Of a stretch of 34,556 nucleotides of DNA, positions 6,416 through 10,481 are shown piece after piece. The DNA comes from Clostridia bacterium (GTDB taxonomy: Bacteria > Bacillota > Clostridia > UMGS1883). The notes beneath the pieces were generated by a model. The model was not told where the DNA came from and searched no databases. It saw only the letters and a program-made list of their open reading frames with translations. The stretch lies in assembly GCA_017411435.1 (NCBI GenBank), contig JAFQQD010000012.1, forward strand, positions 1 to 34,556. Direction: 5' to 3'. Numbering within the stretch: position 1 is the stretch's first letter; each line of letters opens with the position of its first letter. The translations under genes were made by a program, and so were the position numbers.

Positions 6416-6429
6416 AGAAGCACGGCTTT
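6397..6429 (+). terminator. Hairpin overlapping the end of the DUF6514-like gene
   Basis: AAAGCCGCGCTTC pairs with GAAGCACGGCTTT (one mismatch). The T run is weak, so it may be an attenuator rather than a full terminator. It is followed directly by the Shine-Dalgarno-sequestering hairpin of the next gene. Confidence 0.55.
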
Positions 6430-6436
6430 AACTTTG

Positions 6437-6468
6437 CACTCCTTATCAAATGATTTTACAAAGGAGTG
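6437..6468 (+). promoter_or_regulatory. Shine-Dalgarno-sequestering hairpin, orphan copy
   Basis: CACTCCTT (6437-6444) pairs perfectly with AAGGAGTG (6461-6468), the ribosome-binding site of the next gene, and TATTTTTT follows. It matches the B-C hairpin of the integrase leader and the two HNH cassettes, but I see no A segment and no convincing opposing promoter here. Confidence 0.65.
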
Positions 6469-6476
6469 TATTTTTT

Positions 6477-6671
6477 ATGAAAAGAAATGTAATTAAAATA
6501 ATCGAGGAATGCAGAAAATCAGGAAGAATAACTGCAAGATATGATATGAAGGTGGCAGATGCCATGAGTATAAAAGAATTTTGCCATGATGATTATGAAT
6601 TAATTACAAGGTCTTTTATCTTTGGGTATGCACAAGGGTATAAGGCTGCATTGAACAGCCAGAAGAAATAA
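6477..6671 (+). CDS. Small cassette protein (YAQGYKAA family), third paralogue
   Basis: A 64-residue protein sharing the pattern ...CRKSGRITARYDMKVADAM... and FGYAQGYKAAL with the proteins at 3381-3602 and 25196-25417. Function unknown. It stands alone, without an RHH or HNH partner, on the opposite strand, and converges on the XRE gene 4 bases beyond its stop. AAAGGAG precedes the ATG at the normal distance, inside a hairpin that would hide it. It may be the remnant or ancestor of the two cassettes. Confidence 0.7.
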   Translation: MKRNVIKIIEECRKSGRITARYDMKVADAMSIKEFCHDDYELITRSFIFGYAQGYKAALNSQKK

Positions 6672-6900: not shown

Positions 6901-6976
6901 AAATACTCCCTCTGTATTTATGGCTTTGTCAACAATTTGTCAGAGAGTGCGTTTAGCCAAATATATGTGCATTTGT

Positions 6977-7027
6977 AACTGACTCTTAATCAGGGTGTCC
7001 AGGGTTCGAGTCCCTGATGGCGCACCA
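6977..7027 (+). other. attP core: 3' half of tRNA-Lys(CTT)
   Basis: The segment contains an anticodon arm with loop CTCTTAA (anticodon CTT), a T arm CAGGGTTCGAGTCCCTG, an acceptor strand ATGGCGC, and ACCA. No matching D arm or 5' acceptor strand (GCGCCAT) is found upstream, so it is not a full tRNA gene. Such 3' halves are the standard crossover region of tRNA-targeting integrases; on integration the phage copy restores the host tRNA-Lys. Phage genes lie on both sides. Confidence 0.85.
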
Positions 7028-7076: not shown

Positions 7077-7253
7077 CTTTTTGTTTTACACCTCTATAAA
7101 AAACGGCGAAAAACGGCGAAAAACGACACGAAACTTTGTCAAAACTTTGTCAAAGCCATAAGCACTATAAAATTTTCATTGTTTTTTTCATTGTAATCGC
7201 AGCGGGAAATTTTGTCAAGAGAAAAATTTAAGCAGATGCTTGAAACATCTGCT

Positions 7254-8318
7254 TTATGCTCGGAAACGGGTTTCCATATAAGTGTCGATAGTTGATATTG
7301 CTTGTGCCGTAACTTCTTCATCGAACTCGGTGTAAATATTCATAGTTGTTTGAATGTCTGCGTGTCTTAAAAGACGCTGTGCGGTTTTTACATCCACGCC
7401 TGCTTTATATAAAAGTTTAGCGTAGGCGTGACGCAGTTGGTGATTTGTGAAGTTGTGACCTATGGCTCTGGTGTATTTGGTCATTCTTTTTCTTATTTGT
7501 GTAACAGTAAGAGGTTTTTCTCCACCAAAGATGAAATCATCGGGGGACATATCTTTTACCATATCATAGAGAAGGGGTTTCAAAATAGAGAGAATTGGAA
7601 CATCAAGTTCGCTATTTGTGCTTTTTCCAGTATCTTTCAGATGGGGTTGGTTGTTGATAAACTCCACGCTGTGAAGAAAGTGAATTGTATCGTTTTCAAA
7701 GTCAATTGCCTTTTTCTGAACTGCATCGAGTTCTCCGCGGCGGTAACCGGTACAGAGGAGCATCATCGGCCACATACCAAACTCAACAATCGTTGCGTTT
7801 TCCACGATGGTATCAATAATAAAGTCATCGGGAGAAATGCGTTTCCCTTTTTTGGCAGTTCTGGGGACTTTTAATGTTCTGCGGTAGTCGGTAACTTGCA
7901 GTCCGTGGAAAAGACCATATGCAAGCACCATACCGAACACGGTTCTTACCTTATACACAGAAGAATAACTATATTTTTTGCGTCCTAAATCATCAAGAAG
8001 CCCCTGTACTGCTTCAGGAGTGATTTCTTCTAAATCCATATCATAAAATGGCTTCAGGTGTTTTAGGGCAGTTGTATAACTCTCCATAGATTTATAACCT
8101 ACGCTTGCTTCGTGTTCTTCGAGCATTTTCTCGGCGAGGGATAGAAAATTATGTCGCTCGTGATGAAGTCGCTTCTCAAAGGCAATACGCTGATTTAAGA
8201 TATCTTTTTCGGCACGCTTGTCAGTTGATTCAGAACTGTAGAATGTTTTTGGCTTGGATAATCCATCTATTCTGAATGTCTGCATCGCTCTGCCGTCTTT
8301 TCGGCGAGTTATTCCCAT
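7254..8318 (-). CDS. int: Site-specific tyrosine integrase
   Basis: A 354-residue tyrosine recombinase: arm-binding N-terminus (~1-60), SAM-like core-binding domain (~60-150), catalytic domain (~165-345). Catalytic residues visible: R193 (GYRRGEL), H293 and R296 (HQLRHAY), H319 (LLRHADIQTT), and the nucleophile Y329 (MNIYTEF). It lies next to the tRNA-Lys attP core. The ATG at 8318 is preceded by GAAAGGAG; the upstream in-frame start at 8351 lacks such a site. That ribosome-binding site is buried in a perfect 9-bp hairpin and faces a predicted antisense RNA, so integrase synthesis appears to be RNA-controlled. Transcription may also enter from the NYN gene upstream. Confidence 0.95.
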   Translation of the reverse strand: MGITRRKDGRAMQTFRIDGLSKPKTFYSSESTDKRAEKDILNQRIAFEKRLHHERHNFLSLAEKMLEEHEASVGYKSMESYTTALKHLKPFYDMDLEEITPEAVQGLLDDLGRKKYSYSSVYKVRTVFGMVLAYGLFHGLQVTDYRRTLKVPRTAKKGKRISPDDFIIDTIVENATIVEFGMWPMMLLCTGYRRGELDAVQKKAIDFENDTIHFLHSVEFINNQPHLKDTGKSTNSELDVPILSILKPLLYDMVKDMSPDDFIFGGEKPLTVTQIRKRMTKYTRAIGHNFTNHQLRHAYAKLLYKAGVDVKTAQRLLRHADIQTTMNIYTEFDEEVTAQAISTIDTYMETRFRA

Positions 8319-8325
8319 AAAAAAT

Positions 8326-8406
8326 ACACTCCTTTCAAAAAATGGTTGCAAAACCCCAAGGAGTGTAATATAATAACATTAGCGATATGTTGAGGAACAC
8401 TCCTTG
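8326..8406 (-). promoter_or_regulatory. Three-part attenuator leader of the integrase
   Basis: On the minus strand, A (8397-8406, CAAGGAGTGT) is perfectly complementary to B (8358-8366, ACACTCCTT, plus G). B is perfectly complementary to C (8326-8334, AAGGAGTGT), the integrase Shine-Dalgarno. B-C is followed by ATTTTTTATG. A-B and B-C pairing exclude each other, the classic arrangement of an antisense-driven attenuator or translational switch. Confidence 0.65.
8346..8374 (+). promoter_or_regulatory. Opposing promoter in the integrase leader
   Basis: TTGCAA (8346-8351), 17-base spacer, TATAAT (8369-8374) on the plus strand. It fires away from and antisense to the integrase leader, with a terminator about 65 bases downstream and no gene between. 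Confidence 0.65.
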
Positions 8407-8447
8407 ACGTTGCCCTATGGTGTTGGTAGCACTGTAGGGCTTTTTTA
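8381..8447 (+). ncRNA. Predicted antisense RNA 2 (~67 nt) against integrase
   Basis: It runs from the TATAAT box to a terminator GCCCTA (8412-8417)/TAGGGC (8435-8440), with an inner GTG/CAC pair and TTTTTT. It contains ACACTCCTT (8397-8405), perfectly complementary to the integrase Shine-Dalgarno and to segment A of the leader. It could act in cis on read-through NYN-int mRNA. It could also act in trans on the gene at 6477, whose leader carries AAGGAGTGTA. Confidence 0.6.
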
Positions 8448-8452
8448 TTTAG

Positions 8453-9169
8453 TTAATTATCTATCACAGTTTGTTGTGCCTTTTTGGGGGCAGTTTTCGC
8501 CTTTTTGGGAACTTTTTTATATTCATAGGTTTTGTTTCGCAATCCGTCTATGTGTTCCATCAAATCATCGTTTATATGAGACCCCATAGAATCAAGGATG
8601 AAATCTACACCTTCTCTGCGAGCAAGTTTCGCAGCAGGAACAAAATCACTATCTCCGGCAATAAGTATAATTTGGTCGACCTGCTTTTTCAGAGCCATAG
8701 TCGAAATATCAAGTCCTAATTTCATATCAACACTTTTTTGTTTCATATTCAACTCGAAATCTGATTCGGTTAACTGTGACACATCAGTAGTGCCGTTAAG
8801 AAGTTTACGAGTTGCTTCGGAGGAGAGAGAATATTGTGCTTCATTGTCTGACAACCGCCCAAGTCTTACTGCGAATTTTCGCCTTTTCTTGAGAAATCTC
8901 AAAAAATCATTGGACCATTTATATGAGGGGCTTTTCCTTAAATCAACATTTTTCTTAGTTAGGGGATGAAAAATGTTCTTATTAGATGCAGGACAATCAT
9001 AATAAAAAATTCTATATAAATAAATTTCTGCATCGTGTTCTTTGAGGTGGAGTTTACAATACTCTTCGAGCTCATCAGCTCTTTCTTGGGGAGACTTATC
9101 TCCGAATATGTTCTTCGCTTTTTTCCTATAAAAGCCACCATCAACCAAAATAGCAGTTCTTATAACCAT
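8453..9169 (-). CDS. NYN-domain (LabA/DUF88-like) PIN-type nuclease
   Basis: A 238-residue protein. The NYN (PIN-fold) signature is visible: AILVDGGF (D10), SVDMKLGLDI (D148, D154) and LIAGDSDFVPA (D173, D175), followed by GVDFILDSMG. The C-terminal ~25 residues are Lys/Ala-rich and probably flexible. NYN proteins are metal-dependent ribonucleases or related RNA-binding proteins; several occur as phage cargo and in defence contexts. AAAGGAG lies 8 bases before the ATG. It has its own near-consensus promoter with a palindrome at the start site and a long hairpin in the leader. It lies in the lysogeny block upstream of integrase. A role in host defence or RNA turnover is inference. Confidence 0.85.
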   Translation of the reverse strand: MVIRTAILVDGGFYRKKAKNIFGDKSPQERADELEEYCKLHLKEHDAEIYLYRIFYYDCPASNKNIFHPLTKKNVDLRKSPSYKWSNDFLRFLKKRRKFAVRLGRLSDNEAQYSLSSEATRKLLNGTTDVSQLTESDFELNMKQKSVDMKLGLDISTMALKKQVDQIILIAGDSDFVPAAKLARREGVDFILDSMGSHINDDLMEHIDGLRNKTYEYKKVPKKAKTAPKKAQQTVIDN

Positions 9170-9197: not shown

Positions 9198-9247
9198 GCC
9201 CATAGCCTCGTTACTTCCCGTATGGTGGGAGAACTATCGCTATGGGC
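9198..9247 (-). promoter_or_regulatory. Large hairpin in the NYN leader
   Basis: A perfect 9-bp outer stem (GCCCATAGC at 9198-9206, GCTATGGGC at 9239-9247) encloses an inner TTCCC/GGGAG stem. It ends about 30 bases before the NYN start codon and has no U run. It is more likely a protective or regulatory 5' UTR structure than a terminator. Confidence 0.6.
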
Positions 9248-9796: not shown

Positions 9797-10420
9797 TTAA
9801 AATTCAACTCTGCACTCTACAACCTTACCAACAACTTCAATCTTTGTGTCCTTCAGGTTGTATGTTTGTACTTCGTGTTTAGGATTAAATGACTGAGGGA
9901 CAAGATGAACAATATCGCCCTCCTGCTTGAACCTTTTTACAGTCGCTTCGTCGTTATTGACTCTGACAACGGCGATTTCTCCGTTTTCAACGATGCTCTG
10001 AACTCTGACAATAATCAGGTTGCCGTCATTTATCTGGGCAGCGGTCATACTGTCTCCCTTTACCCTGAGAGCAAAGTATTCTGCACCGCCGTTACGGTCG
10101 GTATAGGTATAGCCCTCGATGTTGTCTTCTGCATATAAAGGAAGGCCTGCGGCTATTTGTCCCAATATAAGTATATCGTGAACTTTGGGATTGTATGGAG
10201 TTACTGAGGATGAATTTACTGAAGGCCACCCCATAAGATAAGAAGGAGATACATCAAAAATATTGGCAAGTTTTTCAATATTCCCTATTGGAATGTTTGT
10301 AACAATATTCTTTTCATATTTAAAGATGGTTTGTGTTGCTATACCTAATTTTTCAGCTATATCTGTTTGTGTTAATCCGCTTTTTTCTCGTAGATATTTT
10401 ATTCGGTCTCCTATAGTCAC
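9797..10420 (-). CDS. CI/LexA-like phage repressor (HTH + S24 peptidase)
   Basis: A 207-residue protein. An N-terminal HTH_3 domain (GDRIKYLREKSGLTQTDIAE) is followed by a peptidase S24 domain with an autocleavage site at about A91-G92 (GQIAAGLPLY), S124 (VKGDSM) and K162 (ATVKRF). This is the SOS-cleavable architecture of lambda CI. The GTG at 10420 was chosen because AAGGCGG lies 8 bases upstream; a GTG at 10429 overlaps that site and a TTG at 10459 has none. It is the first gene of the leftward lysogeny block. ACAAATGAAATTTGT just upstream (10456-10470) is a possible operator. Confidence 0.92.
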   Translation of the reverse strand: MTIGDRIKYLREKSGLTQTDIAEKLGIATQTIFKYEKNIVTNIPIGNIEKLANIFDVSPSYLMGWPSVNSSSVTPYNPKVHDILILGQIAAGLPLYAEDNIEGYTYTDRNGGAEYFALRVKGDSMTAAQINDGNLIIVRVQSIVENGEIAVVRVNNDEATVKRFKQEGDIVHLVPQSFNPKHEVQTYNLKDTKIEVVGKVVECRVEF

Positions 10421-10452
10421 TATGTTCACCGCCTTAATTTGTAAATGTCTGC

Positions 10453-10481
10453 TTGACAAATGAAATTTGTTGTGGTAGTAT
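10453..10481 (+). promoter_or_regulatory. Rightward promoter of the control-region small RNA
   Basis: TTGACA (10453-10458), 17-base spacer, TAGTAT (10476-10481). The palindrome ACAAATGAAATTTGT (10456-10470) overlaps the -35 and spacer and may be a repressor site. Only a small RNA-sized interval precedes the terminator at 10544-10583. Confidence 0.75.

Follow-up and report, generated by a model that had tools for sequence, protein, structure and literature searches.

In plasmids, antisense counters that control Rep proteins are known. In pT181, stem-loop IV holds the ribosome-binding site (RBS) and resembles a terminator, and a pre-emptor segment pairs with its 5′ arm (review PMC5703833); control is dual, acting on both transcription and translation (PMC5435934). 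For pSK41, antisense binding is proposed to induce a stem-loop that covers the RBS but does not terminate transcription (review PMC5703833).

The locus analysed here is the leader of a tyrosine integrase gene (int) in a stretch of 34,556 nucleotides, called the window below. Its segment B can pair either with an upstream segment A or with segment C, the Shine-Dalgarno sequence (SD) of int, and a predicted antisense RNA covers A. As in RNAI/repC of pT181 (Novick 1989, reviewed in PMC5703833 and PMC5435934), the short antisense RNA is complementary to the leader, A is a pre-emptor whose partner is the 5′ arm (B) of the last hairpin, and this B–C hairpin, which directly precedes the start codon and has U after it, includes the RBS. 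Unlike in pT181, where a plasmid Rep protein is controlled, the gene here is a phage integrase, the sequences are unrelated, the B–C stem is weaker with a longer loop, the U-run is not found in every leader, and the system is predicted from sequence. Since the U-run is not universal, RNAI/rep of pSK41 (Kwong 2006, reviewed in PMC5703833) parallels our locus no less closely than pT181 does; it shares the two-stem-loop antisense RNA and the antisense-induced hairpin hiding the RBS, which was proposed for pSK41, although its target is again a plasmid Rep. RNAIII/repR of pIP501 is similar in its antisense-driven leader attenuation, and that replicon also has an HTH repressor (Cop), whereas its leader is about 320 nt long, controls Rep and has no sequence relation to ours. 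The tnpA/art200 system of IS200 (PMC12594629) likewise combines a mobile-element recombinase, a leader hairpin that hides the RBS and an antisense RNA, but its hairpin is a stable stem-loop, art200 promotes mRNA degradation and the recombinase is of a different class; no A/B/C switch has been described for the tnpA leader (PMC12594629). Our locus is not literally a plasmid replicon control region, because it serves a tyrosine integrase gene, and the prophage around it has genes for portal, head and endolysin. It appears to be a known plasmid-type control in a new context. For integrases such control seems to be undescribed: no paper on antisense control of a phage integrase was found in the open-access literature, subscription journals being largely outside the search.

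The integrase has 354 amino acids and is encoded on the minus strand (7254–8318, ATG at 8318; Pfam Phage_integrase 5e-20, PHROG integrase 1.7e-42). Immediately upstream of the leader element lies a codirectional gene for a NYN-domain protein (8453–9169, minus strand; Pfam NYN 8e-10, PHROG 5783), and a CI-like repressor gene with HTH and S24 profile matches (9797–10459, minus strand) is also codirectional with int. Between the repressor gene and A no sense-strand terminator met the scan criteria; a terminator-like hairpin was found at the end of int. A tRNA match (6947–7024) lies beside this immunity and integration block, and the portal, major head, endolysin and replication initiation genes are to its right. 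At the Rfam gathering score, one tRNA was the only match in the window, and the sub-threshold matches of the leader were far below the cut-off.

All three leader segments are read on the minus strand. Segment A, found by repeat search, is CAAGGAGTGT (8406–8397), which pairs with B and lies opposite the antisense RNA. Segment B is TACACTCCTTG (8357–8367), the partner of A or C, situated within the spacer of the antisense promoter and outside the antisense RNA; its register is ACACTCCTTG (8366–8357) against A and TACACTCCTT (8367–8358) against C. Segment C is AAGGAGTGTA (8334–8325), with the SD AAGGAG at 8334–8329, and on its 3′ side an A, TTTTTT (8324–8319) and the ATG follow. In the repeat search A and B matched at 10 of 10 positions across a gap of 30 nt (15 nt at 87% when extended), and B and C also at 10 of 10. 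The positions of the segments and both perfect pairings were thus re-found, by sequence and by repeat search, as the preliminary description had given them.

The antisense promoter, TTGCAA-17-TATAAT (8346–8374, plus strand), was assigned by sequence match and is conserved in the related leaders G015, L017 and L018. Promoter-like matches as such show no enrichment in the region (11 against 9.4 expected), and the assignment therefore rests on position and conservation. The intrinsic terminator of the antisense RNA (8412–8446, plus strand) consists of a hairpin at 8412–8440 with 13 bp and a loop of 3, with TTTTTTATTT. Between them they predict an RNA of about 67 nt (8381–8447, plus strand) composed of a 5′ tail, hairpin I (8387–8410) and the terminator hairpin (8412–8440). 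The opposing promoter and the strong terminator bounding a short RNA over A, as claimed before, are real sequence matches; hairpin I, in the 5′ part of the predicted RNA, had gone unmentioned, and its loop ACAC falls in the complement of A. The predicted fold, with both hairpins, has a z-score of −5.1. The same two-hairpin fold is common to L072 (the window), L018, L096, L008, L013 and L039, with z-scores for the 5′ part of about −3.1 to −4.4. We also considered a coding function of the antisense RNA, and rejected it, as the 6-codon open reading frame of the window is lost in G015.

For the pairing statistics the parts were defined without reference to pairing: A was the stretch of sense leader facing the predicted antisense RNA, as given by the promoter position, B whatever remained before the SD, and C the region of the SD; each duplex energy was set against dinucleotide shuffles. 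In the window, A:B reached −22.3 kcal/mol (p=0.0005) and B:C −15.4 kcal/mol (p=0.0025), and the 65-nt piece containing the SD folded with a z-score of −2.9. In equilibrium folding, the predicted probability that the SD is unpaired fell from 0.37 with A present to 0.02 with A blocked. With A blocked the predicted value was at most 0.14 in the window, L013, L009, L029 and L034; in L035 it was 0.29 with or without A. In the full leaders of G015 and G008 it was 0.14 and 0.05, respectively, with A present, and the minimum-energy fold of G015 already prefers B–C. The two pairings clearly exclude each other at equilibrium in the window, L013, L029 and L009, and partially in G008, L113 and L035; in G008 and L113 the exclusion is partial because A–B and most of B–C can coexist. 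Equilibrium folding thus predicts a clean ON state in some leaders only, and in those without a clean open state co-transcriptional folding would be needed, or the switch would be less complete.

The leader of the window recurs with 88% DNA identity in G015 (an Oscillospiraceae MAG from the same genus; SVJW01000005) and was also found in two viral contigs, L017 and L018. The G015 integrase behind this shared leader is 27% identical to that of the window, over part of its length (P0001 against P0003), so the gene has diverged further than the leader in front of it. At E<=1e-30 no close relatives of the integrase itself turned up in viral contigs, genome contigs or 398 genomes of the phylum, and leaders were therefore collected via DNA matches, via the NYN gene and from other integrases. 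The apical A–B stem changes from AACAU/AUGUU in the window to AACGU/ACGUU in G015, that is, one pair from A-U to G-C.

The layout of antisense promoter, antisense terminator, A–B pairing and B–C pairing occurs before integrases of gut bacteria in at least five other sequence families with unrelated letters, namely L112–L115 (with GTACATGATA arms), L013/L025, L009, L029 and L035, and in every such leader C is the SD. In L035 the segments A, B and C are GTTATGGTATAATAA, TTATTATACCATAACGCATC and GATGTGTTAT, followed by TTTTTATG; in L112, whose relatives are L113–L115, they are GTACATGATACAA, TTGTATCATGTACGCTCCGTTTTG and CAAAAGGAGTGTA (L112 letters), followed by TTTTTTATG; in L013 they are GGGTTATGATATAA, ...CATAACCCTGCTTAGAT and ATTTAAGGAGGG. 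L009 and L029 follow the same plan. The preliminary description had B–C followed by a U-rich run; six T are indeed present in the window, and a U-run also in G015, L112–L115, L029 and L035, but it is not universal and is absent in L013. A three-segment terminator was for this reason rejected as the universal element, and SD occlusion is the common denominator. Likewise, face-to-face promoters in both arms were tried and rejected, since TATAAT is shared by the two arms in no leaders but L013 and L035, where a good -35 box is missing.

Our sample contained 91 integrase leaders, in 19 of which an antisense terminator accompanied an antisense promoter lying no more than 110 nt from the start, a ratio that is not a frequency because the sample was partly seeded with relatives of integrases already having the layout. 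Both pairings were significant (p<0.03) in 8 of these 19 leaders, spanning six sequence families; when the geometry was placed blindly on the remaining integrase leaders, the same test was passed by 1 of 68 mock placements, and by 0 of 7 non-integrase genes with the layout. In the seven significant leaders besides the window, p for A:B was at most 0.012. Two members of the GTACATGATA family added later, L113 and L115, gave p-values of 0.017/0.0005 and 0.0005/0.035. Leaders L041, L074, L068, L060 and L039 have the promoter and terminator, and one or both pairings are lacking in the shuffle test. The preliminary description would have been refuted by relatives in which A/B/C complementarity is lost; it is kept in six leader families, but not in others that have the promoter–terminator layout alone. 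A pattern search for the GTACATGATA family in 391 genomes of the class returned 26 matches, mostly ordinary promoters, with four true members.

Leaders L032–L038, L170 and L171 form a separate family (alignment A5), whose members retain the antisense promoter and, as an element that hides the SD, CCTTTTATTTT / AAGATAGGAGG. In L032–L038 the predicted probability of an unpaired SD is near 0 with A blocked, and the duplex test shows weak A–B pairing. As a check of prediction, four human gut phage contigs and two plasmids were examined: two of the six, both phage contigs, have a leader of the L032 type; in the other two phage contigs and both plasmids the layout was not found. The two positive contigs, MT838877 (L170) and MT839810 (L171), have this leader before an integrase gene with an antisense RNA of about 110 nt, for which an extra hairpin is predicted. 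A second module of antisense promoter and terminator was seen before another gene in L032 (about 760–850), L034 (640–797), L036 and L041. That gene sits downstream of the repressor and in L034 encodes a secreted-looking protein; A/B/C pairing was not found in these second modules by the same test.

The GTACATGATA family, L112–L115, allowed the helices to be compared between relatives. The A–B helix shows two double changes from C-G to U-A and two changes to G-U wobble pairs, and 97.9% of its cells are paired. This comparison holds four sequences only, and 39 of 500 shuffles reach the observed level. The covariation among A, B and C that had been looked to in related prophages is thus seen as compensatory changes in A–B, but B:C in L112–L115 has one-sided changes only.

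We consider it likely, with a probability of roughly 0.65, that the 5′ leader of the int mRNA is an antisense-RNA-controlled switch that would act by occluding the SD. Sense transcripts probably enter the leader from upstream, from the NYN gene or the repressor. When no antisense RNA is present, emerging A would pair first with B, the SD would stay open and integrase would be made. The constitutive-looking promoter within the leader would fire in the opposite direction and give the short two-hairpin RNA ending at its own terminator, which is predicted to be a perfect complement of A but not of B. When it binds, A would be lost, B freed and the SD hidden by B–C pairing. In the window and several other leaders, transcription termination at the U-run after the B–C stem may add to this; with its six T, both transcription and translation control are possible for the window. 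That both RNAs are made, that folding proceeds in this order and that the integrase level responds is our inference. As for the pT181-like logic asserted in the preliminary description, computation supports it in that A is covered, B lies outside and can pair with A or the SD, and the plan recurs with unrelated sequences; what the leaders share is the occlusion of the SD.

A simpler reading, which we find unlikely, is that the B–C hairpin merely hides the SD, and may terminate transcription, against read-through from the immunity operon, that the antisense transcript acts by transcriptional interference or duplex cleavage, and that A–B is no switch. The position of int downstream of the repressor with no intervening terminator found in the window fits such insulation, as do the predicted folds of G015, G008 and the L032 family, which are dominated by the B–C or SD hairpin despite A, and a second gene with the same RBS (6460–6479), which has a B–C-like hairpin and no antisense promoter. 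It would not account for A–B pairs that score as highly significant, have been maintained through compensatory change and in every significant leader fall within the part covered by the antisense RNA.

Less probable still is a role of the inverted arms as DNA operators, bound by a regulator of the antisense promoter, with the RNA pairings arising as by-products. In the cases examined, one arm does overlap the promoter spacer or the -10 box, the arms of L008 and L013 are themselves quasi-palindromic, and coevolving operator copies would mimic the A–B covariation. On the other hand, the arms lie anywhere from about 14 to 39 nt apart, they contain G-U wobble pairs and pair with the SD beyond chance, and within the window AAGGAGTGT occurs exactly only at the A, B and C sites and the RBS at 6461, so that there is no copy beside the repressor. 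That A and C are alike simply because both resemble an SD, with B a chance anti-SD-like word, is very improbable: C is a strong RBS seen elsewhere, with an identical 15-mer at 6460, but the shuffle tests, the mock and gene controls and the recurrence across six leader families speak against coincidence.

Such an element would let transcription of the immunity operon run through int and yet keep integrase low, which would explain a silent prophage integrase despite its position downstream of the repressor. Only tentatively do we extend this to the proposal that portable, fast-diverging countertranscript leaders of the SD-occluding type govern integrase in many prophages and integrated elements of Clostridia, and that, the antisense RNA being driven by dosage, their output senses the copy number of phage DNA. 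The preliminary description had proposed such a counter of phage DNA, by which the lysogeny decision would also be set; that antisense RNA could increase sufficiently with phage copy number to serve as one is plausible. If copy number is sensed, integrase could for example be switched off after phage replication and capped in a single-copy prophage. The same logic in several unrelated integrase leaders would show that phages and integrated elements limit their recombinase through RNA counters; it opens a direct test of dosage sensing and is a possible source of compact orthogonal RNA switches.

Several further features were noticed around the locus. NYN genes of PHROG 5783, a group of unknown function, stand directly upstream of different integrases in the window, L009, L010, L011, L013 and L049, and the antisense element lies between the NYN gene and the integrase in the window, L009 and L013; a role of the NYN protein, a putative ribonuclease, in RNA control is possible. 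Directly before the SD of the NYN gene, on its own strand, is a hairpin, GCCCATAGC/GCTATGGGC, followed by TTTATATTT (9198–9247, minus strand), which may be a separate attenuator. A small open reading frame of 64 aa with no PHROG match (6477–6671, plus strand) has an RBS, AAAGGAGTGTATTTTTTATG, identical to that of int (the 15-mer at 6460). Upstream of this RBS, GCACTCCTT could hide it in a B–C-like hairpin with a U-run (whole element 6425–6479, plus strand); no antisense promoter was seen at this leader. Between int and the tRNA (7099–7160) we found the direct repeats AAAAACGGCG (two copies) and AAACTTTGTCAA (two to three copies), which resemble integrase arm-type sites, and a partial copy lies on the far side of the tRNA, at 6924–6945.
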